Shown: piece after piece, positions 7,072-63,239 of the stretch
How the letters are laid out: each line of letters begins with the position of its first letter
Numbering within the stretch: the first letter of the stretch is position 1
Virus record (IMG/VR): IMGVR_UViG_3300030109_004085
Location: 1 to 64,000 of that record
Origin: a virus
Strand: one strand, 5' to 3'
Length of the DNA: 64,000 bases
Position numbers and translations under genes: made by a program
The notes under the pieces: model-generated
What the model saw: only the letters and a program-made list of their open reading frames with translations
What the model was told of the DNA's origin: nothing
The model's database searches: none

Positions 7072-7746
7072 TTATCTTCTTCGCTTGGGGGGGACATCCA
7101 CGCTCATTAGAGCATCTAATGCGTCGCGTTCTGGGGTGCCGGGAGTAGCAGCACGACCGACAGGAACATTTCTAGCTGGACGACTGTCAGCGTCGGACTT
7201 GGCTCTATCAAACATATCCTTACCTAAGTCCATAGTCTTCTTCTCAACGTATGTTAGAAGTGACTCAAGGTTTTCTGTGTTTGATCTTCCTTTAACTTCC
7301 AAAGCGGCGTCTTGAGAATTCTTAAACATTCCAATCCACTCTTCCACCCTGTCCATAAGCATAGGATTTGGCTTATTCATCTTTGTTTCGCCTGGGAACA
7401 TGAAACCAAACAAACTATCCAGAAGGTTACCCTCATCGTCCTCTTGTCTTAAACTAAAGATCAACTCTCGATTTGTGACATCTGGATATAGAATATCTAC
7501 GAGGCTCTCGGCGCGGCGACGATCTTCCTTGGTGGCTTTCGAGCCGCGCATGGCACGATCTCGGAGTTTATCGCGCATAGCTCGGACGTCAACTTTCTTG
7601 GTTTCTGCCCCGGCGGCAGCGCGTTTCATCGCCTCTCTTTCACCCGGCTCAAGCATACGCGTTGTTCCCGGGTCTTCCTGCTCCGCAAGAATATTATGCA
7701 GTTCCTCTGTGATGATTCGCTTAAGCTTCGACTTCGTTATTTTCAT
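7072..7746 (-). CDS. putative virion-packaged protein with MKITK leader
   Basis: The 224-residue protein starts with MKITKSKLKRIITEELHNIL, an amphipathic basic helix nearly identical to the N termini of the proteins at 32620-32853 and 32866-33174. The rest is charged and helical (Arg/Asp/Glu/Lys rich) with no catalytic motif that I recognise. Unrelated proteins sharing one short N-terminal signal, with acidic/E-rich sequence after it (ILAEQED), suggest targeting into the prohead, by analogy with T4 internal proteins. It overlaps the next upstream gene by 26 bases. Confidence 0.5.
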   Translation of the reverse strand: MKITKSKLKRIITEELHNILAEQEDPGTTRMLEPGEREAMKRAAAGAETKKVDVRAMRDKLRDRAMRGSKATKEDRRRAESLVDILYPDVTNRELIFSLRQEDDEGNLLDSLFGFMFPGETKMNKPNPMLMDRVEEWIGMFKNSQDAALEVKGRSNTENLESLLTYVEKKTMDLGKDMFDRAKSDADSRPARNVPVGRAATPGTPERDALDALMSVDVPPKRRR

Positions 7747-8494: not shown

Positions 8495-10513
8495 TTACTG
8501 ATCTAAACTAAGAGCCTGATCGTATGCTTTGATATACACATCGTGTAGTTTCTGAATAGCATTGGATCTTCGCAGCATCTTAAACGCGAGATTCTCGGGA
8601 GAGAAGATGCCAGCTTTTTCCAATCCTGTTTGTCGCATTGTTTTGATCTTCTCTTTCAGACTAGCCGCAGCCTCAAGTGCTGCATTGTGATCTCCATCAT
8701 ACAGGATGGATGCCACCTTGTCAACCCCTCTTTCAATATCAGCTGCTTTTTTCCGAGCGGTTTTCTTGTCAATGAAGGGCTTCACTTTGTTTGGCTTCAC
8801 GAGCCACTTATCGTTCATTAAAGAATATACGCCCGTTGAAACATGTGGCTCGCTTTCGTCCTGAACATAAAGCTCAACCTCGTGTCCCTTGACTTTTATA
8901 TCGTGGGTTCTGTTCCAGTTGGCACGAACTGCGTCAAAGAAACGCTTAACCAACTCTTCATTCTCGTTAACTTCTTTGAAGTCTATCAGGATATGTAAAT
9001 CAATGTCAGAAAACTTTGACCAGTTATAGTTCGCTAAAGACCCTGTAAGGATAATATCTTTAATCTCGGCGTCTAAATCTAAACGCTCAACGAATTCATC
9101 AACAATATCCATCAAAGCAGCTTTAACCCCAGGTCGGATTCTCTCTTCACCGTCCCAGATTTTTTGCTGGAACTCTGGCTGCATCTCAAATGTTGCTAGA
9201 TCCTCTTCATTGCCTACGGAAATTAGAATATCCTCGCGTAAACGGTCAAAGCGGCTGAGATCTTTGTTGGTGTATCGTGGCTTGCGTTTTTGCTTTGTAA
9301 CCTGTACATACTTGTCGGCGCCTTGCAGGGATGCGGTGGTGTCTTTTGAATCCTTTTTATAAATCTTTGTAAGATGACGCTTGTTCTTGACATAATCTTT
9401 CATTGATTCTTTTGATTCTAGGTCGCTAACTGGTATAAAACCAGCCTCAGCCATATGGCGCGCAAGGTTATCTATGTCTGTTACACCAGCTTCATAAGCG
9501 TCGTACCAATCATCAATTGAGGAGTCTGCTTCTTTCTTTTCAACATCATCTCGGCTATCGTGGTAATACTTCCATACTGCCGCAGCATCGTCGGAGACAC
9601 TGTTATCATCTGCTTTTAGTCCTCTGCTGCTCTCTGACGCTATCTCTAGTGCCACATCATACAGCAAAGGTCCGAAGCCATCTCTGGCCTTTACAGTAGC
9701 AACTTTATAGGTTCCCTTGAACGGATCTCCGGAAGAACGGTGTGCCTCCAGCACGCCGTATACGTCGATACCAGCCTCCATACGATCTAAATCGTCCGCA
9801 ACCAAAGGAGCGTTAGGATTGTCCTTCATCGCGTAATACACCTTGTATTTCATTGGCATCTGCTGAAGATCAACGGCAACCACAACCCCTTCGGGTAGGT
9901 CGGCGGCAGTCTTCATCGCTTCGTCAAGGATAGCCTCTTCTAACCCACCGACGGCGCCGGGTGGTGCTGATTCAAAGTCAGGCGAGTCACTTACGTTTTT
10001 GTATCCACCCTTTCTCTGAGGTCCTTTGGAAGTAAGATCTTTGAAATCCTTTTTCAAATCTGACTTATGTTTTGCAGACTGATAATAATCACCCTCCGAT
10101 ACATTCTGGACTCTCTTGGTGTATGAACCGGGACCGTAGAAAGCTTTTCTTCTTTGTTTAGGTTTGCGTTCCTTGTATCTCAAGACCGAAACACCCTTGA
10201 GTCTAGCGATGAGCTTTACAACTCGCTTCATCATTAGTTCTTTGGACGTGTCTCGTGGACGACGGACGTGAACTTTGAGCGTGGAAAGATAAGTGTTGCC
10301 TAAATCTTTCTGAACACCTCCCTTTTCTCTCTCAATGAGAGTAACAGTCAGAACCTCTGGAAGGGCGCGGATGTCGTTTTTAGTCTCGTCGCGGGAGCCG
10401 CCACGATTCTTGTCCATTGATATCAGAACAGTAAAGTTAAACGTGTCCTGAAAGTATGCAGGATCTTTAGCTTCCTCTAGGAAGTCTTTAAAGGTTTGAA
10501 GTTCGCGTTTCAT
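8495..10513 (-). CDS. nucleotidyltransferase-domain protein, likely packaged
   Basis: The 672-residue protein has a C-terminal Pol-beta-type nucleotidyltransferase signature: DIILTGSLANYNWSKFSDID, then LHILI (about residues 487-510), i.e. hG[GS]...DhDhh with the two metal-binding Asp. Family members add nucleotides to proteins, RNA or small molecules. The N terminus, LQTFKDFLEEAKDP (residues 5-18), is close to the capsid-targeting peptide of T4 internal protein I and fits a prohead-protease cut FLEE|A. It follows the phosphomannomutase stop without a gap (TAGATG) and without an obvious ribosome-binding site, so it relies on re-initiation. The central 300 residues are unrecognised. A role as an injected protein modifying host components is inferred. 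Confidence 0.6.
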   Translation of the reverse strand: MKRELQTFKDFLEEAKDPAYFQDTFNFTVLISMDKNRGGSRDETKNDIRALPEVLTVTLIEREKGGVQKDLGNTYLSTLKVHVRRPRDTSKELMMKRVVKLIARLKGVSVLRYKERKPKQRRKAFYGPGSYTKRVQNVSEGDYYQSAKHKSDLKKDFKDLTSKGPQRKGGYKNVSDSPDFESAPPGAVGGLEEAILDEAMKTAADLPEGVVVAVDLQQMPMKYKVYYAMKDNPNAPLVADDLDRMEAGIDVYGVLEAHRSSGDPFKGTYKVATVKARDGFGPLLYDVALEIASESSRGLKADDNSVSDDAAAVWKYYHDSRDDVEKKEADSSIDDWYDAYEAGVTDIDNLARHMAEAGFIPVSDLESKESMKDYVKNKRHLTKIYKKDSKDTTASLQGADKYVQVTKQKRKPRYTNKDLSRFDRLREDILISVGNEEDLATFEMQPEFQQKIWDGEERIRPGVKAALMDIVDEFVERLDLDAEIKDIILTGSLANYNWSKFSDIDLHILIDFKEVNENEELVKRFFDAVRANWNRTHDIKVKGHEVELYVQDESEPHVSTGVYSLMNDKWLVKPNKVKPFIDKKTARKKAADIERGVDKVASILYDGDHNAALEAAASLKEKIKTMRQTGLEKAGIFSPENLAFKMLRRSNAIQKLHDVYIKAYDQALSLDQ

Positions 10514-11251
10514 CTATATAAATAGTTCGCCGTACTCAATAAGTGCGCGTGTTTCTTCCGGACATAGAACTTGATACCAGTGAGAACCTACAACAGATTC
10601 TAAACGCTGTGCGAGAGGCCAATCATTTCCGCCGGGTATGTTCTTATCCCCAACAAAAATCATCTCAACATCATCGCCGTGCAGCTCTCTTAGTTTTTCC
10701 ACCACTTGTCCTTTATTTTTGCCTTTTGGATAGATATCTACCGAGATCGAACCGCCAATTGAAACCTCTAGTTCTGGGTATGTTTCGCCAATATATGCGA
10801 CAATGTCTTCTCGTTCAAGTGTCCTCTTATCCCATCGCTCATAAGCCTCTCTCATATTCTTGTTGGCATTTCTTCCAACTGTAGAGAAATTAATCATACC
10901 GGGTCTTTTTTCAATATGATTACCTTTCTTAGAAAGCCATTGAGAGTTGTCTAAGTATAACTCTAAGTCTGAAATAAATTCTTCACTAGGACTGAAGACA
11001 TTGCTATAAACAATCTGTCCTTCCTGTCTAAACACATTCCCCGAGCACGTAAATACACCTAGACAAGAACGTATAAGATCTTCGCCTAGTTGCTCTCGTG
11101 TCTTTGAGATGTCCGAGCCTGTGACCAAATATACTTTCTTGCCACCGGTGACCCATGACATAAACACATCTTCAATTTCTGTCTTGATTTTTTGGCGGGG
11201 CTCAGTTAACGTCCCATCAACATCAAATAGGTATATTCTTTCAGGCATCAC
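10514..11251 (-). CDS. phosphomannomutase, eukaryotic-type HAD family
   Basis: A 245-residue HAD-superfamily protein: nucleophile motif LFDVDGTLT at residues 8-16 and GDKNIPGGND near 197-206, the metal/phosphate loop that characterises the PMM1/PMM2 type (about 245-260 residues, cap C2b). The reaction is mannose-6-phosphate to mannose-1-phosphate. A mannose-6-phosphate isomerase-type cupin is encoded at 15434-15835, so a phage-boosted route to activated mannose is plausible, for glycosylation of phage proteins or altered host surface sugars. Substrate range in this family can include glucose phosphates. Confidence 0.78.
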   Translation of the reverse strand: MMPERIYLFDVDGTLTEPRQKIKTEIEDVFMSWVTGGKKVYLVTGSDISKTREQLGEDLIRSCLGVFTCSGNVFRQEGQIVYSNVFSPSEEFISDLELYLDNSQWLSKKGNHIEKRPGMINFSTVGRNANKNMREAYERWDKRTLEREDIVAYIGETYPELEVSIGGSISVDIYPKGKNKGQVVEKLRELHGDDVEMIFVGDKNIPGGNDWPLAQRLESVVGSHWYQVLCPEETRALIEYGELFI

Positions 11252-11507
11252 CTTGGACTTTCGTATTTCGTAAAAGAATCTCAGCGATTTCTTTATTGTA
11301 ATCCTCTGCGCTGTTCACGAAGATTTGATCCATTTCTCTTTGCTCGTCAAGCATCTGCCACAAAGCATCGTTCTCATCGGCAAGCTTATCAAACTTTTTA
11401 ATCTTTGTTTGAACCTGATTTATCGTGCTTTCGATTCTATCCAAGCGGCTAAGCACGGTATCGAATGATGTGGCCGCTCGGAGTATTTTCTGTACTAAAG
11501 ATAACAT
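11241..11507 (-). CDS. small coiled-coil protein
   Basis: The start at 11507 has AGGAG eight bases upstream. The 88-residue product is almost entirely helical with a heptad-like pattern (FDTVLSRLDRIESTINQVQ, then TKIKKFDKLADENDALWQML). It overlaps the phosphomannomutase start by 11 bases and the upstream gene by 59 bases. Oligomeric coiled coil is all that can be stated. Confidence 0.55.
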   Translation of the reverse strand: MLSLVQKILRAATSFDTVLSRLDRIESTINQVQTKIKKFDKLADENDALWQMLDEQREMDQIFVNSAEDYNKEIAEILLRNTKVQGDA

Positions 11508-11718
11508 TTATCAACTCCTGTCTAGTAATTATGCCAGACTTGCGATTATAAATCAACTCTAAAAGTCTTTTTTGTGTTTCCGTTGAGAGAGGGAAGGGTG
11601 TATTCATATATGTATCAGGACTCACCTCTGCCATCTCAATAGCACGCGTCTCAGGAACGTCTGTTGCGTTTGTATTCCATTTGTCTTTCAAAACTATTAC
11701 CTCTTTTTTCACACTCAT
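11449..11718 (-). CDS. hypothetical protein, 89 residues
   Basis: The product has a polar N terminus and a C-terminal helical part (STETQKRLLELIYNRKSG then IITRQELINVIF). It begins 7 bases after the vWA lipoprotein stop with no clear ribosome-binding site, and it overlaps the following gene by 59 bases, an unusually long overlap that lowers confidence in its last 20 codons or in the downstream start. No family recognised. Confidence 0.4.
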   Translation of the reverse strand: MSVKKEVIVLKDKWNTNATDVPETRAIEMAEVSPDTYMNTPFPLSTETQKRLLELIYNRKSGIITRQELINVIFSTENTPSGHIIRYRA

Positions 11719-11724
11719 AAGTAG

Positions 11725-12762
11725 TTAACTACCGGCTGAATCGTCATCATCACCGGCGCTGTCGTCATCATCACCGGCATCATGATCAATAACATATCCA
11801 ATTTCCACTAATGCACCCTCGTAAGGCACCACCAGGAATTCAATGCTGTTTGTAGCAGCGTTATACACCCAGTCTGTGTCAGCCATCGGCACAGTATCTT
11901 CAAAAACAATCAACGTATCCTCAATAGGTGTGTAGGTCAGCGGCCACTCTTCGTAGGGGTCGACCTGTGAGGATGCAGCGGCTACACCGGGGGACCAATC
12001 TTCTTCGCAAATGTCAACCACCACACCACTGAATGCGTCTGTGGCGTCCATGTATCTGTCTCCCACAAAAGTAGCAGATACCCCTCCGTCGCAAATAGTG
12101 TCTGCTGGGTCAACGTTTACAATGCTCGCCATGAAGACAGATTGTCTTTGGTTACCGTACCACTGAATAAACTCTTGAAGACCGGCGTTGGTTGAAGTGA
12201 ATTGGGAACTACTTTGTTCATCTTCATCGCTAACAAATACTACCAACAGGGCGGCATCATTGCGTAGCCACGTTTGGTTGTAAGAGTTGAGAGCAACATA
12301 ACTGTGTAGCGCGTCGAAGCCTGCCTCTCGATAAGACGGGAGTCCGATGAGGGTGTTATAGGCTGCCTCAGCATCAGCCACCGTATCTCCCGGAACCAAT
12401 GGGAATATGGCTTGCTGTTGTGCCTGCATGTAGTCAGTTGTAGTAATCCCCAAACGCCAACCTACTGCCGGTAGGGCACTCATCATCTGACCAATACCAT
12501 CGATTACTGCTTGATTAAACGTATTCATTGAGCCCGATTGGTCAATAAGCCAAATAATGTCGACGCCATCAACTGTGAAAGGTTGTTCAAACGAATCAAC
12601 CCAAACATCGCCACCCTCTCCTGGAATGTCAATGTAAACAGTTTCTCCCGGGATTTCAACGTAGACTGTTTCACCTGGATTCTGCGAGTAGATTGTGTAA
12701 TCTCCTTCGCATCCGAAAACCGTCAAACAAACAAGAAATACTAGTGCAAATCTACTAAGCAT
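11725..12762 (-). CDS. vWA-domain lipoprotein with DDDDSA tail
   Basis: The N terminus (LVFLVCLTVFGC, Cys18) is a lipoprotein signal. It is followed by a Tyr/Pro/Gly repeat (NPGETVYVEIPGETVYIDIP) and a von Willebrand factor A domain with MIDAS motif DQSGSM at residues 74-79. The protein ends in two acidic repeats of GDDDDSA. vWA domains bind metal and mediate protein adhesion. Such lipoproteins with DDDDSA runs look like host surface proteins of Myxococcota/Deltaproteobacteria-type bacteria (recalled, not searched), suggesting recent acquisition from the host. Next to it is a protease lipoprotein. A role on the surface of the infected cell, such as superinfection exclusion, is inferred. Confidence 0.7.
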   Translation of the reverse strand: MLSRFALVFLVCLTVFGCEGDYTIYSQNPGETVYVEIPGETVYIDIPGEGGDVWVDSFEQPFTVDGVDIIWLIDQSGSMNTFNQAVIDGIGQMMSALPAVGWRLGITTTDYMQAQQQAIFPLVPGDTVADAEAAYNTLIGLPSYREAGFDALHSYVALNSYNQTWLRNDAALLVVFVSDEDEQSSSQFTSTNAGLQEFIQWYGNQRQSVFMASIVNVDPADTICDGGVSATFVGDRYMDATDAFSGVVVDICEEDWSPGVAAASSQVDPYEEWPLTYTPIEDTLIVFEDTVPMADTDWVYNAATNSIEFLVVPYEGALVEIGYVIDHDAGDDDDSAGDDDDSAGS

Positions 12763-12764
12763 TT

Positions 12765-13601
12765 TTAATCCCTCAACCCACCTCTTCTCGGAGCAGCAGC
12801 GCCAGGAATAGATTTCATCTCCCGCACTGGAACATCAGAGGATAGAATTCTTACTTTTAATAACTCAAGATCAATTTGACTAATGGGGGCAATCCAAACA
12901 ATCTCCTCCAGCGGGATACGACCGCCGCCGCCGAAGCGCCCAACGTCAATTCCCGACACACAGCCAAGATATCTGCCTGACTGGTCAAATACTCCGGAGC
13001 CAGATGAGCCGAACCACCCGAACATGTTGGATACAATCATGCTGTGCTCTAGGGCTGCTACATATCCTCGGATTGTCAGAAGGTCGTGATGTGATGGAAA
13101 GCCAGTATAAGTTAAGTTTTTTCCAACGAGTCTCTCGTCGTATTTTAATTCTGGTCGGTAACGAATGGCTGTTCTGGTTTCAATCTCAGGAACAACCATA
13201 AAAGCAATGTCAACCCTGTGGTCTGCAAAGATAACCTTGCCTATGACCACTTCACCATCTCGGCCCTCTATGAGCATAGTACTCTCGTTCCGGACAACGT
13301 GAGCAGCCGTTGCGACGATGCGGCGGCCATAGGCGACCATGTAAGTACCAGAGCCATGACCACCCTGTAAAAGCGAACGGACTTTTACAGCTGCCTGTCT
13401 GGTTCTTTTTTCTGTTAATGTAAGGTTAAGGGCGTCAATGACTTCCAGAACTCGTCCGATAGAGTTCCGTACTTCAACTGTACGCTGTGTTTGAATAATA
13501 TCCGGATTTAAGTTTGAGTTAGAATTTGGTAAGACCGGTCCAGTACAACTTACCAAAAGTAAAGAAGCTATTATTATAAAGTTTTTAATCCACCTAGACA
13601 C
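12765..13601 (-). CDS. trypsin-like serine protease lipoprotein
   Basis: The start is GTG at 13601 with GGAGGA six bases upstream. Residues 1-19 (FIIIASLLLVSC) form a lipoprotein signal, Cys19 being the lipidated residue. The catalytic triad of the chymotrypsin fold is visible: His101 in TAAHV, Asp131 in RVDIAF, and Ser200 in GSSGSGVF. A short tail with RRGGLRD ends the 278-residue chain. Phages rarely carry secreted trypsin-like proteases; the neighbouring vWA lipoprotein suggests a two-gene cell-envelope module. Substrate unknown. Confidence 0.75.
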   Translation of the reverse strand: MSRWIKNFIIIASLLLVSCTGPVLPNSNSNLNPDIIQTQRTVEVRNSIGRVLEVIDALNLTLTEKRTRQAAVKVRSLLQGGHGSGTYMVAYGRRIVATAAHVVRNESTMLIEGRDGEVVIGKVIFADHRVDIAFMVVPEIETRTAIRYRPELKYDERLVGKNLTYTGFPSHHDLLTIRGYVAALEHSMIVSNMFGWFGSSGSGVFDQSGRYLGCVSGIDVGRFGGGGRIPLEEIVWIAPISQIDLELLKVRILSSDVPVREMKSIPGAAAPRRGGLRD

Positions 13602-13770
13602 GAAAAATCCTCCGTGAAATAGGTTACTTTATCACTATCACTCCAACGTACTAATACCTGCAAACTCCTTACGGGACGCTAAATTTTGCATACAACCTGA
13701 GTCCTTTCTAACCCGATATGTCTATAAGTAACTAGAAGGCAAAAGACCTTTGACGAAAGAAGTTCTAAAT
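13602..13770 (-). other. 169-base intergenic leader
   Basis: The stretch is AT-rich and contains no consensus promoter. It holds the GGAGGA site for the GTG start at 13601 and a 17-codon frame (MQNLASRKEFAGISTLE) that I cannot support as a gene. Its length is unusual for this compact genome and it may carry a leader or weak promoter for the lipoprotein module. Confidence 0.4.
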
Positions 13771-15411
13771 TTATTTTATAATTTTTGCCCAGGAGCCAAA
13801 AACCTTGGACTCTTGGAAGGGAAGAGTTTGTTGCCCTGCCTCTTCTTCTTGGTCGCGCTTCATCTGGCGATCCTCTTCGCCGGCAATGTCTCGATACACG
13901 CCGAGTGCCTCTAATCTCTCCTGAACACCTTCCCAGAAACCGTTGTAATCAAAATCTGCTTCTTCGGGCGCAGCTGTCGTGCTTATCAGATATTCGGAGA
14001 CATCTTGCATTTCGTCTAGATAGTTGTTTAGGCGAGCTAGCTCTTCCGCCACATCCTCTGGTTCGTCTGGATCATCTGGTTCAAAACTATCTACCCACTC
14101 CATTTCAATACGGAGCATCGCGGCTTGCGAATCTTGTACGCCGCGCGGAAACACATCAACGCTGACAATGTTGGGGTTGGGAGTGAGGGTGTCGTAGCCA
14201 ATCCTCTGCGCATCCTGGCGAATCTCGTAACGCAAACGAGTGGTCTCTTCCTGTACAATAATATCTTTCACAGGCCAGAACGCTTGGTGCTTCACAAGGA
14301 AGCTCACTGCGAGGGATCCCATTGAGGGCCAGTCCACTTCCTGGCTTGTCTGGGAGTCGGACTCAAAGCCGGGAGCATACTGTTCTAACAGTTCATTGGC
14401 TTCTGTAATCCATGAGTCCTCAAACTTGATATCGGGGTGCTTCTGTTTAAGATATTCCAGCATCTCTATAAAACCGACGCTGTCAGAACTATGCGTTCCG
14501 TCCTCGTCAAACTTCTCTACGCCCGCGTTCTCAAGGAACCAATCAATGTAGGGCCACAAATCTTCGGTAGGAGCTTTGTTAGCTTTGCCTTTAACTTGAT
14601 ATACAACACCGTCAGCAAATTCCAGAGTAACCATTGGTTTAATGCTGCGGCGCTTCTCTCCGCTGCGGAGGGAGTAGAGCATCCCCTGGTCGGCGCGACC
14701 ACAATGTCCCATCTTCTTGCCTTCAAAATCACAAGCTCTGCTGCGGATATCATACCAGAAGTAGCCATTATCAAAGGTGTGAATAACTTGATCTTCTGCT
14801 TTGGCCGGACTAGTCAAAACATCTCGGGCTATCTCACTTGCAGTGCGGAGGAAGCGTTCCTGGTTCGTACCAATCCCCTGGCGTAGTTCGTCGTAGAAAG
14901 CTGGATCTTCTGCCAGCAGCGTCATAATGGGAACAATGTATCCCTGGAGCGCGCGAACGCCCTGAGTCGCTCTATATTCTAAAAACGAATCTAATTGCTT
15001 AATCAGCATGTCGGGAGCACCGCGCTTTTTCAGCATCTTTCGGGCGCTCTTTCTAAGAGATTTAAGATCCGCCAGTCCAGGGGCTCCCCGTACGCCGGAA
15101 TGGTTGATATACCACTCGCTAAAGAATTTGACGGTATTGCTCCAGGCTTCTTCTGCTTCGGGGGTATCGGGCCACCGGTCACGTCCAATTATTTCTTCAA
15201 TGATAGTCTTGTGGACGCTGGGGCTGTAGAAGTTCCTACTCTTAACCGCTTTTACAAGAGTGCCAATCCAAGTCAGATGTTTGTTGCTGACCGGACCGTA
15301 CTCATTGTTCATCTGCCTTAAGATAAACGCAACTTCAGAGGGGAGGCCAATATCCTCGACCCCTTCTTGAAGTAGATAATCTTTCCATTTGTTAGTTTGA
15401 CGCAAATACAT
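13771..15411 (-). CDS. large hypothetical protein, likely packaged
   Basis: I take the ATG at 15411; a TTG one codon earlier is an alternative. The 546-residue product opens MYLRQTNKWKDYLLQEGVED: an aromatic-x-D-aromatic-LLQE|G pattern similar to the T4 internal-protein targeting peptide with its prohead-protease site. Around residues 230-240 it has CDFEGKKMGHCG, reminiscent of the EG..M.HC motif in PcfJ-like proteins. The rest is helical and acidic near the C terminus. There is no clear ribosome-binding site. Function unknown; the leader suggests packaging and injection. Confidence 0.55.
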   Translation of the reverse strand: MYLRQTNKWKDYLLQEGVEDIGLPSEVAFILRQMNNEYGPVSNKHLTWIGTLVKAVKSRNFYSPSVHKTIIEEIIGRDRWPDTPEAEEAWSNTVKFFSEWYINHSGVRGAPGLADLKSLRKSARKMLKKRGAPDMLIKQLDSFLEYRATQGVRALQGYIVPIMTLLAEDPAFYDELRQGIGTNQERFLRTASEIARDVLTSPAKAEDQVIHTFDNGYFWYDIRSRACDFEGKKMGHCGRADQGMLYSLRSGEKRRSIKPMVTLEFADGVVYQVKGKANKAPTEDLWPYIDWFLENAGVEKFDEDGTHSSDSVGFIEMLEYLKQKHPDIKFEDSWITEANELLEQYAPGFESDSQTSQEVDWPSMGSLAVSFLVKHQAFWPVKDIIVQEETTRLRYEIRQDAQRIGYDTLTPNPNIVSVDVFPRGVQDSQAAMLRIEMEWVDSFEPDDPDEPEDVAEELARLNNYLDEMQDVSEYLISTTAAPEEADFDYNGFWEGVQERLEALGVYRDIAGEEDRQMKRDQEEEAGQQTLPFQESKVFGSWAKIIK

Positions 15412-15433
15412 CAACTATAAGTAGTTTTGAATT

Positions 15434-17033: not shown

Positions 17034-18608
17034 CTAAATCTCTATAATGGCGTGTGAAGTTGTGATTAATGTTCCAGCAGCAGAGGCAGCATTTTGAAGT
17101 GCTGTCCGCGTAACCTTAACGGGATCTATAATGCCTTCTTCAAGCATGTCAACCATTTCATCGGTGCGGAAGTTATAGCCTAGATTGCTTTCAGCCGCTT
17201 CGATCTGAGCAAGAATCAAGTCGGGGGATAACCCACAGTTCTGTGCCATCTGTCGTAGTGGAGCTTTAACTGCGTCGCGTACTATTTCAATGCCAAACAC
17301 CTGATCTTCGTTCTCTGCTTCCACCATTAGAAGGTTGTTAGATACTCGAACCAATGTAACACCACCGCCGGGAATAATGCCTTCTTGCTGTGCAGACTTA
17401 ACCGCTTCAAGCGCGTCTTCAATACGATGCTTCTTCTCAATCATCTCTACTTCAGTTGCCGCACCCACCTTAATGACTGCTACCCCAGAGGCCAACTTGG
17501 TGATGCGTTCCTGAATATTGTCACATTCACGCATGTCATCGGTCTGCATCAACTCAGTCTTCAGCAAATCAATGCGACGATCAATCTCTTCAAAGTCGCC
17601 TTTGCCGCCAATCACAGTAGTATTACCCTTTGTAATGTCGATGGAACGACACTGACCAAAGTGTTGTAGCTTAATGTCTTTTAAGCCAACCGTGCCGCCC
17701 GTAGAGACGAACTCCGCACCTGTTGAAAGTGCTAGGTCGGACAGAATGTTACGACGCCTCTCGCCGTAGAAGGGAGCCTTTACAGCAACAATCTTCAAAG
17801 ATCCCCTAACAGTATTCATAATAAGGGCTGCGAGTGCCTGACCTTCAATTTCTTCGGCAACAATAACAAGGGGACGACCGTCACGAGATACAATCTCCAA
17901 CGCTGGGAGAATCTGGTCTACTGATTCAATCCGATTATCAGTTACAAGAAGAAGCGGGGAATCATAGTGAACCGCACCACGACGTTCGTCGGTTACGAAA
18001 GCAGACGCAGCATAGCCAGATTCAACTCGGAAACCTTCAATAACATCAAGTGAAGTATCGATCGTCTTGGCATCTTGAATGGTAATAGAGCCATCCTTAC
18101 CAGCCTTATCAACAGCAGTGGCGATTAACTTACCAATGGTTCTATCATTGTTGGCCGAGATGGTTGCGATGTTCTCAACATCGTCAAGCGTTTCAATGTG
18201 TTGTGCGTTGCTTTTAAGTTGTCCAACCAAAGCCTCCACAGCCAAATCAATGCCTCGCTTTAATTCTACCGGAGACGCACCAGCAGTGATATAACGCTGC
18301 GCCTTATTAAGGATGGCGCGCGCGAGGACAGTCGCTGTAGTGGTTCCGTCACCAGCCATAGTGTTGGTCTGGGAGGTTGCCTGCTTTAGAATCTGTGCAG
18401 CAGCGTTTTCAAACTCATCGTCCAGATGAACAAACGCAGAGACAGTTACACCGTCCTTCGTAATAATGGGATCATTTCCTTTTTGATGTAGGATAACATT
18501 GCGACCCTTCGGTCCTAAAGTTGCCGCAACATTGTCGGCAAGCTTATTAACTCCGTCCAGAACCTTTTGACTCAGGCCCTGTCGGTCTTCAAATACACAT
18601 TTGGGCAT
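17034..18608 (-). CDS. groEL: chaperonin GroEL (Cpn60)
   Basis: A full-length group I chaperonin of 524 residues. The ATP site is intact: LGPKGRNV near residue 31, DGTTT at 87-91 and the Asp of IEDALEAVKSA near 395, with GGGVTL after it. Equatorial, intermediate and apical segments are in order. It lacks the Gly-Gly-Met C-terminal repeat of bacterial GroEL and ends in TSHAIIEI. It would fold phage proteins such as the capsid protein, possibly with the GroES-like protein at 33215-33493. It has its own promoter (18635-18662) with near-consensus elements. Confidence 0.95.
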   Translation of the reverse strand: MPKCVFEDRQGLSQKVLDGVNKLADNVAATLGPKGRNVILHQKGNDPIITKDGVTVSAFVHLDDEFENAAAQILKQATSQTNTMAGDGTTTATVLARAILNKAQRYITAGASPVELKRGIDLAVEALVGQLKSNAQHIETLDDVENIATISANNDRTIGKLIATAVDKAGKDGSITIQDAKTIDTSLDVIEGFRVESGYAASAFVTDERRGAVHYDSPLLLVTDNRIESVDQILPALEIVSRDGRPLVIVAEEIEGQALAALIMNTVRGSLKIVAVKAPFYGERRRNILSDLALSTGAEFVSTGGTVGLKDIKLQHFGQCRSIDITKGNTTVIGGKGDFEEIDRRIDLLKTELMQTDDMRECDNIQERITKLASGVAVIKVGAATEVEMIEKKHRIEDALEAVKSAQQEGIIPGGGVTLVRVSNNLLMVEAENEDQVFGIEIVRDAVKAPLRQMAQNCGLSPDLILAQIEAAESNLGYNFRTDEMVDMLEEGIIDPVKVTRTALQNAASAAGTLITTSHAIIEI

Positions 18609-21528: not shown

Positions 21529-22239
21529 CTATTTCTTAGTGCTAAGAGCCTCCATAAGAATTCTCTTTGCAACTCTCTTCGTGATGGTCTCCATTAGATC
21601 ATCACCCATCTCGTCTGCATCAGCTGGCTCGTCTGCCATGGCGTCCATAGCATCTGGGGGCTCGTCTGCATCTGCAACCTCGTCAGCGTCAATTTCGACT
21701 TCCTCACCCATTGCGTCTTCAAGGGCGCGCTCAAGGGCTGAAAGGAAATCATCAACTGAAACCATCTTGCCTGCATCTGCGGCTGGCTCCTCAGCTGGTG
21801 CCTCTATCTCTGCATCTACTTCTAGTTCCTCGTCACCGGCAGCATCTTCCATTTCGGCTGCGTCGACTTCCAACTCTGCATGCTCCTCTTCCTCAAGACG
21901 ATCGGCTGGTCCGCGGCCTCTGCCGTGACCTCTTCGTGCGTCCTGTAGACCTCCACCAGCAGCGTCGGTGCGGACTTCATCCATCTCGTCTTCATCTCGT
22001 GCGTGACGCATCTCGTCAAGATCGTCTTCATCACGGCGCATGCCACGCATGCCCTCTTCCATCTCTTCCTCATCCTCACCGCGCATGCGCATTCCTCGAC
22101 CTTCTTCTAGGTCCTCATCAGCGTGCTTCTCTTCGGTAAGACCCTCTACAAAGCCTGGGGTCAAAGGCTCTAGCCTAGCTAGCTTCATGAACTGGCGAAT
22201 CTGTGACTCGCTTAAAATTGTTTTATTCTTTTTGGACAT
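21529..22239 (-). CDS. acidic prohead core/internal-type protein
   Basis: A 236-residue, extremely acidic protein: after a 50-residue N terminus (KTILSESQIRQFMKLARLEP), repeated Glu/Asp/Arg/Met runs (RGMRMRGEDEEEMEEGM; ELEVDAAEMEDAAGDEELEV) fill the chain until a final helix (TITKRVAKRILMEALS). Such composition is typical of phage scaffold or internal capsid proteins. The N terminus resembles the other MKITK/ESQIR-type leaders. Low-complexity DNA makes its repeats prone to slippage. Function inferred. Confidence 0.5.
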   Translation of the reverse strand: MSKKNKTILSESQIRQFMKLARLEPLTPGFVEGLTEEKHADEDLEEGRGMRMRGEDEEEMEEGMRGMRRDEDDLDEMRHARDEDEMDEVRTDAAGGGLQDARRGHGRGRGPADRLEEEEHAELEVDAAEMEDAAGDEELEVDAEIEAPAEEPAADAGKMVSVDDFLSALERALEDAMGEEVEIDADEVADADEPPDAMDAMADEPADADEMGDDLMETITKRVAKRILMEALSTKK

Positions 22240-26538: not shown

Positions 26539-27555
26539 CTAAATCCTTTCTGGTGATTCTGAAAAGACAACTCTAACAGTTGCCTTGGTGTTGAGGTAAC
26601 GCTTGATATATTGTTTCCAAGATGTCTCCGTTCCCAACTTAAGCATAATAGCATCATTATCGGAAGAACGCAAGTTCCAAGTGCGCGCGGAACGCAGAAT
26701 ATCTACTTTATTAATGATTACATCTGTGACACCATTAATATCAACTGCTTTCTTTAGATTCCGAATATTAAGCCAATTGCACTGTCTCGGGCGTCCGGTG
26801 GTTGCACCGAACTCTTGACCGAGTTGTTGAAGAAGATTAAATACTCTTCCTTCTCCATGGAACTCCTTGGCACCAACATAAGTGTCGTATGCCTTAGCCA
26901 CTCCGTATACACGGCGAACAGCCTGCGGCGGGATGCCGTTTAGGAGCGCCCCAGCGGACGTACAGTGGCTTGAAGTAACATAAGGGTAGTCTCCCCAGTC
27001 AATGTCCAACCCAAAGCCTTGAGCGCCCTCACAGAGGATGATACTGGAACAATCAAATTCCTCATCGGAATCGTACAGTTCTGTATACAAATCAATTAAG
27101 TATGGAGTACCGGCGAGTGCCTCGGAAGCAAGTGTCCCTCTACGATCATACTTATCCCGATAAGCGGGCCCGTTCCCTTGTTTGGTGGTGCCGAGCGTTG
27201 TGTCTTTACCGTCCTCTTCTAAATGAGCATCAGTAATGATGTGAGCGTTGTTTGCAATATAAATCAAACCTTCGGTTTTAATTCCGCCATCGTGAAGCAT
27301 CTGCAGTTCTCTCTGGAACTGATCGATATTCACAACACATCCATTACCGATAATGGACTTTACTCCAAAGAACACCCCGGCAGGGATATGGTGCGTTACA
27401 AACTTAACGCCTTCGTGATAAATGGTATGACCAGCATTGCAGCCGCCGTTAAAGCGAATACAATGAGTGTAGTCCCCATTCTTCAAAAGGTGATGTGTTA
27501 CTTTTCCTTTGCCCTCATCACCATAAGACAAACCTACTACGATATCAGCTAACAT
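26539..27555 (-). CDS. purA: adenylosuccinate synthetase, archaeal-type short form
   Basis: 338 residues, about 90 shorter than bacterial PurA and like archaeal PurA and the phage PurZ/PurZ0 group. SYGDEGKGKVT (10-20) keeps the catalytic Asp (residue 13); His42 in NAGHT, GTTKQGNGPAY (121-131), EGAQGFGL, GDYPYVTSS and TTGRPRQ are all present. PurA forms adenylosuccinate from IMP, Asp and GTP. In PurZ enzymes, as I recall, this Asp is Ser (GST motif). The Asp here points to IMP rather than dGMP as substrate, though a PurZ0-like use is not excluded. A promoter at 27674-27702 heads the gene. Confidence 0.85.
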   Translation of the reverse strand: MLADIVVGLSYGDEGKGKVTHHLLKNGDYTHCIRFNGGCNAGHTIYHEGVKFVTHHIPAGVFFGVKSIIGNGCVVNIDQFQRELQMLHDGGIKTEGLIYIANNAHIITDAHLEEDGKDTTLGTTKQGNGPAYRDKYDRRGTLASEALAGTPYLIDLYTELYDSDEEFDCSSIILCEGAQGFGLDIDWGDYPYVTSSHCTSAGALLNGIPPQAVRRVYGVAKAYDTYVGAKEFHGEGRVFNLLQQLGQEFGATTGRPRQCNWLNIRNLKKAVDINGVTDVIINKVDILRSARTWNLRSSDNDAIMLKLGTETSWKQYIKRYLNTKATVRVVFSESPERI

Positions 27556-27558
27556 TTT

Positions 27559-30500
27559 TTATCCTAACAATCTTAGATTTCTTTTAATCGATCGAGTTGA
27601 AAAACCCCACGCAGGGTCATAATCCAACTTACCCATGTAAGGACGGTTCAGATGAATCCTGTCCTTGCCCTCAACTATACCCCAACATCGGAACTTTGTC
27701 AAGGCAGAATTGGAATCAATTACCTCCACAATCCAATAAGGTTTACCGTTTTTCGTTTTCTTGCGAATGATCTCGCGTGGGATAAACCACACAAGCCCCA
27801 ACTCTGGATCGTAATCCGAAATCGCCGGAATGTAATATTCATCCAGCTTTTGCTGGACCTCCGGAGTTACAACCAACGACATAGGAAAGATTCCAGTGAT
27901 TGTCGTTAGATTCTCGATTTCTTCCGCCGAAGTGAAGTCGCCTTCGTCCTTGTACTTGTCAATGTTTTCATTGAACTTCTTGCGGTTGTAGACTCTATCG
28001 ACCGCGACAGCGGACCAATAATGTTTGCGGCCCGTAAAGCGGTCATCCATTAGACTATTCATTGCACCTGAGCGAACCAAGCAATCCAATGCTTTCTTAT
28101 TTAGCTTGCTGTATACAATGTCGTCGTGGAATAGAAACTCCTCGATATTCGCGAACGGACGGTTGTCGACAATCTGCTGGATCGCTGCGTCACCTAGCCC
28201 CTTCAAGCCCGCAAGAGGCTGAATAAGCTTGCGGTCATCATCGGGATCGATCTCCCAAACAAATGATGAGCGGTTTACGTCTGCCTTCTCGATAAAGAAG
28301 CCGTTCTGCTTCGCGATATTAATTGCCTTTTCCTTTCGCTTCTCGGGCTCCTTGTCCAAGAATGAAGCCATCCACTCTACCGGGTAATAATTCCATAGCC
28401 ACGCGCATTGGAACGAGATAGCCGAATATGAAATAGCGTGAGACTTGTTGAAGCCATACCCGGAGAAGTATTCAAACCTCTCCCACATATCCTCGGCTTC
28501 GCGTTGGCGAATCCCCTTCTCCACGCAACCGTTGATAAACTTCTGCTTGAGTTGGTTCTTAACTCGTGCTCCCTTACCCGTTCCCTTCTTCGTTAGCACC
28601 TTACGAAGCATATTGCCTTCGTCTAGGCTTAGATCCTTGCCGAGCTTGTGGGCGAGCAATGCAATCTGTTCCTGGAAGATAAGGAACCCGTAAGTTTCCT
28701 CCGTAACATCCTTAATATGATGATTCATGTAATCAATCTCGTCTGCGTTCTCCTTAGCTTGAATATACTGCTCGTGAACATTTGCCGATAGAGGACCCGG
28801 ACGATAAATGGAGGTAATAGCGGAAATGTCAACTAAGCTCTTGGGTTTTACGTTCGAACAGAATTCCTGTGCCCGCCCTTCGGTAAACTGAAAAATTCCC
28901 GCGAAATTGCCCTTCTGAAAAACATTCTTATACACCGCTTGATCGTCAAAATCAATCACGTCCGGATGGAGGTGCTTGTTGTAGAAAGCCTGAACATCCT
29001 TGAATGTCGGCTCTGGAATATTATGATGCCGAACAAGAATGTGACGGACCGCACCTTCGATCATCCGAAGCGTGGAGAGTCCCAACAAATCAAACTTAAT
29101 AAACCCGAGCGGTTCCAAGTGACGAAGGTTTTGACCTTCTGCCCACGGAGACTGGCGAACACCACCTGAACTAATAATTGGCATATGCTCGTTTAGGTCG
29201 TCTGCAATCAAAACACCCCCCGCGTGACGGGAGCAGGAACGAACCTGACCCACAAGCGCCTCAACGTGTGTTTTGATATGCGGATGCTTTACAAGGAACC
29301 CGCGGAGGGACGGAGATAGTTCCATAACCTCCTGCCAAGTCGGATTGTATACACCAGCCTTGATACCGTGCTTTGCCTTTGCAGCAGGCGTTGCCTCAAA
29401 GATCATCTGAGAAGTAACTTTGTTTACCTCGATAAACGGAACCCCATAGAACTTTGAAATGTCCTTAATCAGCGACTTCAGTTGCAGCGTGTTCCAGTTA
29501 GAGATCGGAACCACCGAGTTCTTGCCCCATTCGTCCATTAGAAGTTCTTTAAGTTCCATAGGCTCTGCGACATCATAATCAATATCGGGGTAATCCGTTG
29601 CATCCTTACGAAGGAATCTCTCAAAAAGAAGTCCGTACTTAATAGGATCAATCTGCGTGATTCCAAGAACATAAGCCACCAGCGAACCCGCAGCAGAGCC
29701 GCGGCCAGGACCAGTCAACTGAACTTCGTTTGCCTTGTCTGAGATAGCCTTCATAGTCAAGAAGTATTTACTAAATCCTCGGTCATCGATAACATCCAAC
29801 TCCATCTTGAGCCGGTCTGTGTATTCTTTGTTCTCATGCAGATCACGCTGACGCAATCCCTCTAAAGAATAGTTTACCAAAGCTGAGGTAGCCGTGAACC
29901 CTGCTGGAACCACAAAGTCTGGAAGTTTCACGGTCGTGTCCGGGACAAAGTCTTCAACCCGGTTGAAGGCAATGTTATGAGTCTCAGTGATGGAGTTCAT
30001 TACCAACTCATCATCATACTCGTGTCCACCGACCTTTGAATAATACTTATAGGCATCCCACATTTGGTTGCCGTTCTTCGGATACAGCTCGTATCCAATC
30101 TCTTCAACTCCCTCGGGGAGTTCCGTATTGTCCTCGGCCCAAGCAGGAGTTCCCTTGCCAAGCCAGCCAAGCCGCTTGTACAACTCTCGGTCCTTCCAGG
30201 CTTCGGTGTTTGGATAATGACTATCCGCAGTAGAAATGAGCGTAATATCAAACTCTTTGCATACCTTAATAATATACTGGTTTAATTCATGTTGCTCTGG
30301 AATGTTGTTCCATTGAAGCTCCCCATACCAGCGATCACCGAAGATCTCCACAAAGCGACGACTGGTTTCGCGCATCGCCTCCATAACAGCTTCGGACCCT
30401 TCTTCTCGGTTAGCCCAATAGTTTCCTGCATACGGACCACCCAAACAGGCTGAGGATGCAATCACACCTTCCGAATACTTGTCCAGAAGCTTGTAATCCA

Positions 30501-30999
30501 CACGAGGATAACGATAGAAGTTCTCTTCCTTGTAGGACTCAGAGATCAACTTGAATAGATTGTTCAATCCTGTCTGACTCTGAGCCAGAAGGACCAAATG
30601 ACGGCGACGATTGATAACAGACTTCACAGCCTTCTTAGAGGCTTCTTCGTCCTCCACGGTCGCACCAGAGGTGTCCCCCGCCTTGGCCAGCGTCTTAGCT
30701 AGTTTAGCGTCTGCCTTGATGCGATCATACTCCTTTTGCCATTCCTCAATAGAAGGTAAGAAATAAGCTTCAACACCAAAGATAGGCTTGAAGTCCTTGC
30801 CTTCTGCCTTCATCTTCTTCCAATGAAGAAACTGGTGTGAGAACCCATTCATGTTCCCGTGGTCTGTGAGTGCGAGAGCTTCGCCTCCATTCTCATAGCA
30901 GAAATCCATATGCTCATCGGGGTATCCGATAGCATCAAAAATGGAACCCGCCACAGAGTGAGCGTGAAGTCCAACAAAAGGTATCTTTTTATCCGTCAT
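27559..30999 (-). CDS. dnaE: DNA polymerase III alpha subunit (DnaE, family C)
   Basis: A full-length 1146-residue family C polymerase. The PHP domain has LHAHSVAGS (11-19) and LTDHGNM; the palm has GPGRGSAAGS and the metal-binding PDIDYDV (near 470), with the third Asp in IKFDLLGLST (near 628); a helix-hairpin-helix and OB-fold region (YWIVEVIDSNS) end the protein. It is expected to be the main replicase, needing a sliding clamp that is not in the window. A family A polymerase is also encoded (43301-44488). Phage DnaE is uncommon compared with family A or B. Confidence 0.93.
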   Translation of the reverse strand: MTDKKIPFVGLHAHSVAGSIFDAIGYPDEHMDFCYENGGEALALTDHGNMNGFSHQFLHWKKMKAEGKDFKPIFGVEAYFLPSIEEWQKEYDRIKADAKLAKTLAKAGDTSGATVEDEEASKKAVKSVINRRRHLVLLAQSQTGLNNLFKLISESYKEENFYRYPRVDYKLLDKYSEGVIASSACLGGPYAGNYWANREEGSEAVMEAMRETSRRFVEIFGDRWYGELQWNNIPEQHELNQYIIKVCKEFDITLISTADSHYPNTEAWKDRELYKRLGWLGKGTPAWAEDNTELPEGVEEIGYELYPKNGNQMWDAYKYYSKVGGHEYDDELVMNSITETHNIAFNRVEDFVPDTTVKLPDFVVPAGFTATSALVNYSLEGLRQRDLHENKEYTDRLKMELDVIDDRGFSKYFLTMKAISDKANEVQLTGPGRGSAAGSLVAYVLGITQIDPIKYGLLFERFLRKDATDYPDIDYDVAEPMELKELLMDEWGKNSVVPISNWNTLQLKSLIKDISKFYGVPFIEVNKVTSQMIFEATPAAKAKHGIKAGVYNPTWQEVMELSPSLRGFLVKHPHIKTHVEALVGQVRSCSRHAGGVLIADDLNEHMPIISSGGVRQSPWAEGQNLRHLEPLGFIKFDLLGLSTLRMIEGAVRHILVRHHNIPEPTFKDVQAFYNKHLHPDVIDFDDQAVYKNVFQKGNFAGIFQFTEGRAQEFCSNVKPKSLVDISAITSIYRPGPLSANVHEQYIQAKENADEIDYMNHHIKDVTEETYGFLIFQEQIALLAHKLGKDLSLDEGNMLRKVLTKKGTGKGARVKNQLKQKFINGCVEKGIRQREAEDMWERFEYFSGYGFNKSHAISYSAISFQCAWLWNYYPVEWMASFLDKEPEKRKEKAINIAKQNGFFIEKADVNRSSFVWEIDPDDDRKLIQPLAGLKGLGDAAIQQIVDNRPFANIEEFLFHDDIVYSKLNKKALDCLVRSGAMNSLMDDRFTGRKHYWSAVAVDRVYNRKKFNENIDKYKDEGDFTSAEEIENLTTITGIFPMSLVVTPEVQQKLDEYYIPAISDYDPELGLVWFIPREIIRKKTKNGKPYWIVEVIDSNSALTKFRCWGIVEGKDRIHLNRPYMGKLDYDPAWGFSTRSIKRNLRLLG
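27674..27702 (-). promoter_or_regulatory. sigma70-type promoter for the purA-thyX operon
   Basis: -35 TTGACA (27697-27702), 17-bp spacer, -10 TATAGT (27674-27679), within the last 50 codons of dnaE. Confidence 0.75.
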
Positions 31000-32619: not shown

Positions 32620-32853
32620 TTATAGAATGTTTTTTAGCGCTTCCTCAAGGAATGCGCGGAGAACATTTATATCTACATTTTGCTGGGCATCACTGATGGC
32701 ACTGTCAAGTATCTCAAGAGTTCCGATTTCTGCTTCGTTTCTGCCGTATCTTTCGCCGGCAGTTCGCATATCGGGCTCTTCCTCTTCGGATACAGCACCA
32801 AGCCCCAACTCTTCCTTAATAATCTCTTGTAATCTTGCTTTTGTGATTTTCAT
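32620..32853 (-). CDS. small MKITK-leader protein
   Basis: 77 residues beginning MKITKARLQEIIKEELGLGA then an acidic stretch and a helical C terminus (LEILDSAISDAQQNVDINVL). The leader is the same as in 7072-7746 and 32866-33174. The whole protein is short enough to be little more than the signal plus an acidic helix, as in small internal capsid proteins. Adjacent to the next copy, 12 bases apart. Confidence 0.5.
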   Translation of the reverse strand: MKITKARLQEIIKEELGLGAVSEEEEPDMRTAGERYGRNEAEIGTLEILDSAISDAQQNVDINVLRAFLEEALKNIL

Positions 32854-57952: not shown

Positions 57953-57959
57953 TAAATAG
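57953..57959 (-). promoter_or_regulatory. candidate late promoter CTATTTA
   Basis: TAGCACTATTTACTTTGAAC on the coding strand, 37 bases upstream of the sheath start. Confidence 0.45.
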
Positions 57960-57980
57960 TGCTAAGTAGTAGGAATAGAA

Positions 57981-60290: not shown

Positions 60291-62027
60291 TTAGCCTTCG
60301 AGACCTCGGCAGATGACCAAGCCGTACATATCTGGACGGACCATCTTCTTGGCGTAACGGGTCATAACACCCTTGCGAGGTACGAAGTCCTCTACACCGA
60401 AGATAGTAGGTGTGGTCTGTAGTGGCACATAAGGTGCGTATACATAACCGCTCTCAAGGAAACTACTTCCGCGTCGACCCACAAGGATCAAGTTACGTGG
60501 GAAGTATGGATCGACCATAACGTCGAACTTCTTGGAGAGAGCGCCAACCTTAACGGCACCAATATCACCACGATCAGCATCAGCAGTCACGTTAGCACGG
60601 AAACCAGCTGTGAACTCAAGGATGTTAGCAATCTCTGGGGATGTAACCACAAAGTTTGCAGCACCACGGAGTGTCTTTCTGTGGATCTGTGCGGAGACGT
60701 CGTTGATTGTCTCAACAAGTGTCTCGTACCACTCACTGACGTTACCGGTGAAGTCCTGCGTAACGCTAGAAACAGCACCTGTCTCGCGATCGAGGAACTG
60801 ACCTGGGTGACGCGACCAGTAGCGAGTGCCACCGGTGGACAACTTGATAAGGTCCTCAAGGATCTCACGATCGATCTCAAGGGCGATCTGCTCAGAAAGA
60901 ATCTGAGTAAGCTCGACCTCGGCATCAAGGTTGTGGTAAGCGTTGAGATCCTGTCCCAACTCTGGAGTCCACTTAGCCTTGAGCTTCTTAGTGACAGCTG
61001 TGACGGCCACTGAGTCGACCTTGATGTCGATCTCTGGAATTGCTTCCTGGTTCTCTAGACCCCACTCAGATGCACCTTCGACTGAACCAAGGGCACCACC
61101 AACAACAAAGTTATCAGCCAATGGAGCAGCGATGTGCTCGTGACCACCAACGATCGTTGAAAGCGCGGCAAGGTGAGCAGCAGTTGTTGAAGCAGTCGTA
61201 GAAGCGACTGTGACAAGAATCTTGCCCTCATCGACAAACGACTCTCTCTGGAGACGTCGAACCTGAATTGTGTTGACACCAAGCGACTGTGAAAGTGTAA
61301 GTGCAACAAGGTCTTCCAAGTTTACATCTGCAGCAACCAAAGTGGATCTTGGCATTGTAGCAACTACGAACTGTGAACCAGAAATTAGATCTGGGTCGAA
61401 GCGTAGAAGACGATCAGTCTCATAGCCAGCTGTTGGCGTGTTACCAGCGTAAATAGTAAAATCTGGAACACCACCAGCACCAACGTTACCCGAAGCGACT
61501 ACAGTAAAGGCCATACCAATTGAACCGGTTGGCGAAGAGTAGCCGTTGTTAAGGGCGTATGGTCCAGTCTCAGCGTTGGCGTTCGTTAGAAGAACACCAC
61601 CGGTGATCTGGGCACCAACTCGACCACCACCATAGAGGGACGTGTCAACGGCGTTGGCAAGGCGGTCGCCTGTCGTGTCGCTGAGTGTTCCACCAAAGGT
61701 GAAGTCAAGGAAGAAAATGAGACCCGATGGGAGACTCATTGGCTGAACGCTAACGAGATCGTTGGCGATCAAATTGCCGAATACTCGGCGTACTAGTGGG
61801 AATGCAACAGCTGCAAAACCCTCTACATCTCCAGCAGCCATGGCGCTGGACTCACGGAGAAGCTCTTTTGCTTGGTTTTCAAGCAAACGGGCCATACCGT
61901 TTCTCTGGGTATCATCGGAAATGCCCTCTAGAAGACCAGTCTGCTCCCACTTAGAAATAAGTGCGGCACCCTCGGTCGAGAGGTCACGATTGACAATACC
62001 TTCAGTCAATCTTTCTACAATAGACAT
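60291..62027 (-). CDS. major capsid protein (gp23-like)
   Basis: 578 residues of the T4 gp23 fold. VEGFAAVAFPLVRRVFGNLI (near 75-95) marks the start of the mature protein, probably after cleavage at ...E|G; later ANFVVTSPEIANILEFTAGF, GRRGSSFLESGYVYAPYVPL, and GVMTRYAKKMVRPDMYG at the C terminus match. Forms the capsid shell; would be folded by the phage GroEL/ES. GGAGG nine bases before ATG. Confidence 0.9.
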   Translation of the reverse strand: MSIVERLTEGIVNRDLSTEGAALISKWEQTGLLEGISDDTQRNGMARLLENQAKELLRESSAMAAGDVEGFAAVAFPLVRRVFGNLIANDLVSVQPMSLPSGLIFFLDFTFGGTLSDTTGDRLANAVDTSLYGGGRVGAQITGGVLLTNANAETGPYALNNGYSSPTGSIGMAFTVVASGNVGAGGVPDFTIYAGNTPTAGYETDRLLRFDPDLISGSQFVVATMPRSTLVAADVNLEDLVALTLSQSLGVNTIQVRRLQRESFVDEGKILVTVASTTASTTAAHLAALSTIVGGHEHIAAPLADNFVVGGALGSVEGASEWGLENQEAIPEIDIKVDSVAVTAVTKKLKAKWTPELGQDLNAYHNLDAEVELTQILSEQIALEIDREILEDLIKLSTGGTRYWSRHPGQFLDRETGAVSSVTQDFTGNVSEWYETLVETINDVSAQIHRKTLRGAANFVVTSPEIANILEFTAGFRANVTADADRGDIGAVKVGALSKKFDVMVDPYFPRNLILVGRRGSSFLESGYVYAPYVPLQTTPTIFGVEDFVPRKGVMTRYAKKMVRPDMYGLVICRGLEG

Positions 62028-63147: not shown

Positions 63148-63154
63148 TAAATAG
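63148..63154 (-). promoter_or_regulatory. candidate late promoter CTATTTA
   Basis: AACACTATTTATTTTTGACG on the coding strand, 36 bases upstream of the prohead core gene. Confidence 0.4.
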
Positions 63155-63239
63155 TGTTTTATTTCTCTAAATGACGAAAACAGTTTTATTTAAGAAGCGT
63201 AAAGTTAGTGCGGTCGACTGTATAACAACAAAAGTTCGA

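Follow-up and report, generated by a model that had tools for sequence, protein, structure and literature searches.

Two genes on the minus strand of an uncultured virus, here called A and B, raise the question of why a predicted nucleotidyltransferase and a second large protein should both open with a short peptide of the kind carried by the bacteriophage T4 internal proteins, and why both start codons should lie almost against a promoter-like box. The window that holds them (64,000 nucleotides; positions 1 to 64,000 of IMG/VR record IMGVR_UViG_3300030109_004085) makes up the first 64 kb of G000, a viral contig of 83,881 bp whose genes are nearly all on the minus strand. The explanation that we favor, and consider probable from the DNA and protein sequences, is that A and B are late, head-targeted accessory proteins of the T4 internal protein type. 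The original prediction had both products packed in the head and injected at infection; head packaging is supported by the leader residues, a T4-type protease, a capsid cleavage site, a late-type promoter and a complete nucleotidyltransferase motif, and from these we infer packaging, cleavage, injection and activity. Once in the head, A and B would probably be injected. The two genes and their leaders are as follows.

8495..10513, minus strand: gene A, 672 amino acids, with a leader, a ferredoxin-like N-terminal domain, a variable middle and a C-terminal Pol-beta-type nucleotidyltransferase.
10472..10513, minus strand: gene A leader, MKRELQTFKDFLEE, predicted cut E14|A15.
13771..15411, minus strand: gene B, 546 amino acids, PcfJ-like.
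15364..15411, minus strand: gene B leader, MYLRQTNKWKDYLLQE, predicted cut E16|G17.

The T4-like tags on A and B are real and significant. Both open reading frames (ORFs) and both leaders are present as first described, A starting MKRELQTFKDFLEE|AKDP and B MYLRQTNKWKDYLLQE|GVED (a TTG lies one codon 5' of the gene B start, at 15414). Mutants of T4 internal protein III (IPIII) assign targeting to residues 4 and 7 (Y4, F7) and processing to residues 8 and 10 (I8, E10), and the processing motif of the gp21 protease is L/I-x-E (PMC9026906). Gene A matches all four IPIII positions (F8, F11, L12 and E14, then A15; site LEE|A), and gene B matches them with one residue extra (W9, Y12, L14 and E16, then G17; site LQE|G). 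The original prediction had named the peptide of internal protein I (IPI) as the template; the match to a T4-type leader holds, but TYQEFIAE|A belongs to IPII and IPIII, whose N-termini in the T4 record are MKTYQEFIAE|A, whereas that of IPI is MKTFKEFTSTTTPVSTITE|A. It had also placed two residues between I/L and E, which is correct for gene B and not for gene A, where there is one, as in T4. Because the earlier expression fits gene B only, it was replaced by one built from the T4 mutational data, [WFY]xx[FWY][LIV]x(1-2)E. Within the first 25 residues, only A and B show this pattern among 90 genes of this strand, against an expectation of 0.07 (P 0.002); among 134 T4 ORFs in the stretches examined, only ipII and ipIII do. 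When scored against TYQEFIAEA of T4 IPII/IPIII, gene A reached 27 and ranked first among 97 N-termini; the highest score in 23,037 internal 9-mers was 22.

F11 and E14 are invariant in ten relatives of the gene A leader, F8 and A15 are nearly so, and P2 varies (E, Q, V, L or R). In thirteen relatives of the gene B leader, W9 and E16 are invariant and L14 is nearly so, with P2 and the aromatic residue at 12 variable. When the relatives of A and B are taken together, all have Glu at the predicted P1 and L or I at P3, and P1' is occupied by A or G, apart from one T. The gene B leader is the best conserved segment of its protein (84% column identity versus 50-72% elsewhere) and persists while the bodies drop to 32% identity among relatives. 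In AlphaFold2 (AF2) models the leaders are disordered, with a predicted local distance difference test score (pLDDT) below 50 over residues 1-19 of A and 1-20 of B, and the folded domains begin just past the predicted cuts, at about residue 20 in gene A.

G000 is a fragment of a T4-like myovirus from an abundant uncultured clade. The window contains T4-type head and tail genes (major capsid protein, sheath, neck/adaptor and baseplate hub), genes for a head maturation protease, portal and large terminase follow past its end, and a search with the G000 capsid protein matched at least 593 confirmed stretches. The protease is of the gp21 type (phrog_207, E-value 1.5e-57; G000 71945-72544), and the capsid protein has LLRE|S (residue 59|60) where gp23 is cut in T4, LLRE|[SA] being kept in 24 distinct homologues.

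60291..62027, minus strand: major capsid protein (phrog_138, E-value 1e-70).

With such a protease, the first 14-16 residues of A and B could serve as a capsid-targeting sequence (CTS) by which the protein docks on the prohead core; cleavage after L/I-x-E would then remove the leader, and the enzyme would stay in the head and be injected with the DNA. We think it unlikely that the N-terminal helices instead dock the proteins onto some other phage structure or partner, such as the portal, the core, or the replication or transcription machinery, with L/I-x-E incidental. Several kinds of short amphipathic N-terminal peptide do recur in the clade (MKITK..KLKRIIKEE, LLNESQIRQFMKLA and the ENW/ESW leaders described below), so that a leader need not imply packaging, and the gene B spacing is one residue off that of T4. 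However, the exact T4 targeting and processing positions are kept, with an unvarying P1 Glu and L or I at P3, and an ESW-type leader is found on a gene located between the portal and head protease genes.

The same two genes were said to start right after CTAYTTAT, with no clear ribosome-binding site. The sequences CTATTTAT and CTACTTAT indeed lie just 5' of A and B, CTAYTTAT being part of a box, ACTATTTA, and a Shine-Dalgarno site is absent at both starts.

10519..10526, minus strand: gene A box, ACTATTTA, 5 nucleotides ahead of the ATG, within the 3' end of the HAD gene that precedes A.
10514..11251, minus strand: HAD/phosphomannomutase-like gene 5' of A (PF03332, E-value 4e-28); its last codons (CTA TTT A..) carry the gene A box.
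15418..15425, minus strand: gene B box, ACTACTTA, 6 nucleotides ahead of the ATG.

For A and B, the box ends 5-7 nucleotides ahead of the ATG. In other promoter-led genes that have a Shine-Dalgarno site, the distance from box to start is nearly always 15-48 nucleotides, and nearly all other genes leave the range up to 15 nucleotides empty; in T4 the nearest exact late boxes lie 13-28 nucleotides 5' of the start, mostly 24-28. T4 late promoters have their start point 5-6 nucleotides past the box, and the spacing at A and B puts the start codon at the position expected for a late start point of the T4 type. Given a box only 5-7 nucleotides from the ATG, as against 15-48 in genes with Shine-Dalgarno sites, the A and B mRNAs are predicted to be leaderless late messages. 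A gp55-type sigma factor would recognize ACTATTTA late in infection, transcription would begin at, or at most 1-2 nucleotides from, the A of the ATG, and translation would be leaderless and free of a Shine-Dalgarno site. We rejected one further candidate for a leaderless start, an 89-amino-acid gene whose ATG at 11718 is overlapped by a box; since this ATG is followed by a Shine-Dalgarno site and by a later TTG, the true start probably lies further downstream.

A quite unlikely alternative is that the box beside each start codon is not a leaderless promoter at all, A being coupled to the HAD stop codon and B being read from an upstream message. The HAD stop codon does lie 0-2 nucleotides ahead of the gene A ATG in most relatives. 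In two relatives (L004 and L039), however, the HAD gene has been deleted and the box, spacer and ATG of A are retained. For gene B there is no stop-start overlap, and its spacing is nonetheless exactly 6 nucleotides in all 14 listed family members while the spacer letters vary (TAGTTG, GTTTGA, GAGTTG), and coupling has to contend as well with the lack of a Shine-Dalgarno site at either gene. The HAD homologues ending at the box all have CTA TTT there, although CTA makes up 12.6% of Leu codons.

Judged by its distribution, ACTATTTA looks like the late promoter of this clade, distinct from the T4 late box TATAAATA, which is not enriched in this DNA (3 found versus 2.4 expected). In G000 the coding strand carries it 13 times and the other strand 0 times; the counts are 110 versus 0 across 12 contigs and 296 versus 1 over 97 loci; 224 of the 297 boxes in those loci are intergenic, whereas intergenic DNA amounts to only 7%. 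The box is found ahead of sheath, tube and scaffold genes, two of which serve here for comparison.

57953..57960, minus strand: ordinary box 5' of the tail sheath gene, which has a normal leader with a Shine-Dalgarno site.
63148..63155, minus strand: ordinary box 5' of a putative scaffold gene.

A relative that shares the capsid protein (74% identity over the second half) carries a gene for a gp55-like late sigma factor (L296:1438-2175). It is very unlikely that ACTATTTA is an RNA element, such as a processing site, rather than a promoter: the strict strand bias and mostly intergenic location would fit an RNA signal too, but the distances of 15-48 nucleotides from box to start are like those of T4 late promoters, and the clade has the gp55-like factor.

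The junction of late promoter and start codon recurs on other proteins. A scan for ACTAYTTATATAGATGAAR, in which the leader was left unspecified beyond MK, returned 22 stretches from 2.9 million viral contigs, and every long ORF among them was gene A or began with MK(L/K/Q/V)L(L/I)ENW. (The short promoter-start patterns gave mostly chance matches, tiny ORFs in AT-rich contigs, which were dropped by ORF length.) Leaderless-type late starts with MK.LLENW leaders are found in L226, L257, L264, L271, L272, L277, L291, L293 and L295; one such leader is MKLLLENWRKYLTEET, and the T4-like plan fits many of them (WRKYLTE, WRRFLKE, WNKFVVE). The bodies that follow are unrelated: kinase-like (Pkinase, E-value 5e-6, below the cut-off), zeta-toxin-like (E-value 1e-13), ParB-like (weak, E-value 0.19), cysteine-rich and others. 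Counted by family, the strict motif is present in 5 of 12 leaderless versus 0 of 22 led families (P 0.003); counted by sequence, it is present in 25 of 40 versus 0 of 82, figures inflated by the A and B families, via which many loci were fetched. CTS-tagged internal proteins are known from T4; what is new is the predicted leaderless late start, together with its reappearance on unrelated proteins that bear leaders. We suggest, as a tentative proposal held with less than even confidence, that the clade may possess a portable export cassette, a capsid-targeting leader whose start codon is fused directly to the late promoter; varied bodies placed behind it would become leaderless late, head-loaded and injected proteins, and leaderless initiation would mark the injected set.

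Several observations weigh against this interpretation of A and B and its extension to other genes. A gene A homologue in L030 is without the first aromatic residue (ADNFLVE|T), and the gene B leader, as noted, is one residue longer than that of T4. The predicted mature proteins (A, 658 amino acids, isoelectric point 6.6; B, 530 amino acids, isoelectric point 4.7) are large and neutral or acidic, in contrast to the small basic T4 internal proteins, although T4 Alt is equally large and shows that big cargo can be packaged; the nucleotidyltransferase homologues of cyanophages and Cr30 stand alone among DNA-metabolism genes, apparently without a leader. Some leaderless genes have no leader peptide (metallopeptidase-like and PhoH-like ones; those with the metallopeptidase-like SLSHELVHHAQN motif and no CTS-like leader are in L279, L281 and L283), and some ENW leaders are placed behind normal Shine-Dalgarno sites, so leader and leaderless start are associated, not inseparable.

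Three further N-termini were seen in the course of this comparison. A 205-amino-acid protein that has a hydrophobic segment and an ESW leader (MSDMKLIMESWRSYGRVLEQE) is encoded between the portal and head protease genes of L015 (10705-11322) and is possibly a core protein. A second recurring N-terminus, MKITK..(K/R)LK(R/E)IIKEEL, is carried by unrelated proteins (window 7072-7746 and 32620-32853; L015 8498-8941), one of which adjoins the head protease gene. A third, LLNESQ(I/V)RQFMKLA.L.PL..GFV, occurs at window 21529-22239 and in relatives, on a late gene with a normal leader.

We then consider what the two leaders would carry. The domains concerned are listed below.

10166..10456, minus strand: gene A ferredoxin-like beta-alpha domain, residues 20-116, the most conserved part of the protein; matched to ferredoxin-like folds by AF2 and Foldseek (E-value ~3e-3).
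8861..9094, minus strand: gene A nucleotidyltransferase core, GS-x10-DID (G491 S492, D503, D505) plus E547, invariant in relatives.
14530..14778, minus strand: gene B PcfJ-like core, residues 212-294 (HTFDNGYFWYD..MGHCG..YSLR..VYQVKGKAN; phrog_7484, E-value 1.5e-4).

The C-terminal part of gene A matches PF01909 at 474-551 (E-value 5.6e-5) and phrog_36119 at 439-670, and PF01909 was detected in all 10 aligned relatives. The original prediction of a catalytic Pol-beta-type nucleotidyltransferase agrees with a complete motif and invariant catalytic residues, and the protein is a candidate enzyme on that basis; after injection, its role in the next host would be nucleotide transfer onto a host protein, RNA or small molecule. 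The full AF2 model (pLDDT 57) was too poor to use, and only the N-terminal domain was taken from it. A similar-looking domain (by eye) stands alone behind another leaderless-type start, in L269. The middle region matched no Pfam family, and an assignment of residues ~205-400 as GNAT-like was dropped for want of a Pfam match.

Gene B had been described as a large unknown protein, a description that we revise: it is PcfJ-like by fold and weakly so by sequence. Its best named Foldseek hits are PcfJ-like phage proteins (E-values 6e-6 to 4e-5), in local alignments with a low template-modelling (TM) score, and PF14284 (PcfJ) was matched by 3 of 13 gene B members (best E-value 0.022), gene B itself being unmatched. 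Comparison of the gene B structure with the PDB gave nothing meaningful, a sequence search of the PDB found no match for A or B, and a search for gene B in cultured phages found none. Gene B is dispensable, like other accessory head proteins, since in L039 (7208-7261 and following) it is reduced to the promoter, the leader and a short remnant with a frameshift; that contig has lost its HAD and VWA genes too.

We give very little weight to the view that A and B are made late and do their work at that stage inside the producing cell, in lysis, assembly, or modification of tRNA or metabolites, and are not packaged, which would agree with the late promoter and with the stand-alone, non-virion-type genes of nucleotidyltransferase homologues elsewhere, but leaves unexplained the leader and its strict conservation relative to the body of B.

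Head packaging of A and B would place them beside several known systems. The T4 proteins IPI, IPII and IPIII and their CTS are alike in having a short aromatic-x-x-aromatic-L/I-x-E leader, late expression, unrelated bodies and a gp21-type protease (PMC9026906, PMC12373910); in T4 such leaders mark proteins that are injected to disarm the host, and each of the three blocks a type IV restriction enzyme (PMC12373910). Unlike A and B, whose cargo is large and includes an enzyme domain, the T4 cargo is small and basic, and the T4 ip genes have ordinary Shine-Dalgarno leaders, whereas the start codons of A and B abut the late promoter. The T4 ADP-ribosyltransferase Alt is a large enzyme that, as predicted for A, has a gp21-processed N-terminus and is packaged and injected (PMC9026906, PMC5512222); its catalytic fold differs from that of A, and its leader is off the aromatic plan. 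Polyvalent proteins of phages and conjugative elements (Iyer et al. 2017, PMC5512222) share a repertoire of Pol-beta nucleotidyltransferase, kinase-like, ParB-like and metallopeptidase-like domains, predicted there to be injected and found here behind leaderless-type starts; that literature assigns the Pol-beta-type nucleotidyltransferase as an injected module to conjugative elements rather than phages. The proteins described here mostly have one enzyme domain each, and a T4-type leader lies outside the polyvalent definition, which calls for at least two disparate activity domains; gene A has the ferredoxin-like domain and the nucleotidyltransferase, with a middle that lacks a Pfam match. The phrog_36119 nucleotidyltransferases of cyanophages, Cr30, Maribacter, Lak and other huge phages are homologous to the C-terminal domain of A (30-44% identity), but are mostly stand-alone proteins of ~235-370 amino acids without the N-terminal domain or leader.

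If the same code operates throughout the clade, a box followed by 5-7 nucleotides and a leader would be a searchable signature of injected effectors, and a nucleotidyltransferase would join the candidates. The leaderless model also predicts that T4-type late transcription is able to yield leaderless messages.

Other genes in the window were noted in passing. Between A and B (11725-13601), in a conserved neighborhood, lie genes for two predicted lipoproteins, one VWA-like with terminal DDDDSAG repeats and the other a trypsin-like peptidase. An adenylosuccinate synthetase family protein (PF00709, E-value 1e-80) is encoded at 26539-27555; it also matched the PurZ model (E-value 8e-38), but far under the model cut-off, and a 2-aminoadenine genome is therefore not supported. 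Despite the T4-like head and tail background, 27559-30999 encodes a bacterial-type DNA polymerase III alpha of 1146 amino acids (TIGR00594, E-value 3e-177). A GroEL-like chaperonin gene, recognized by eye, lies at 17034-18608, and its position is conserved among relatives.

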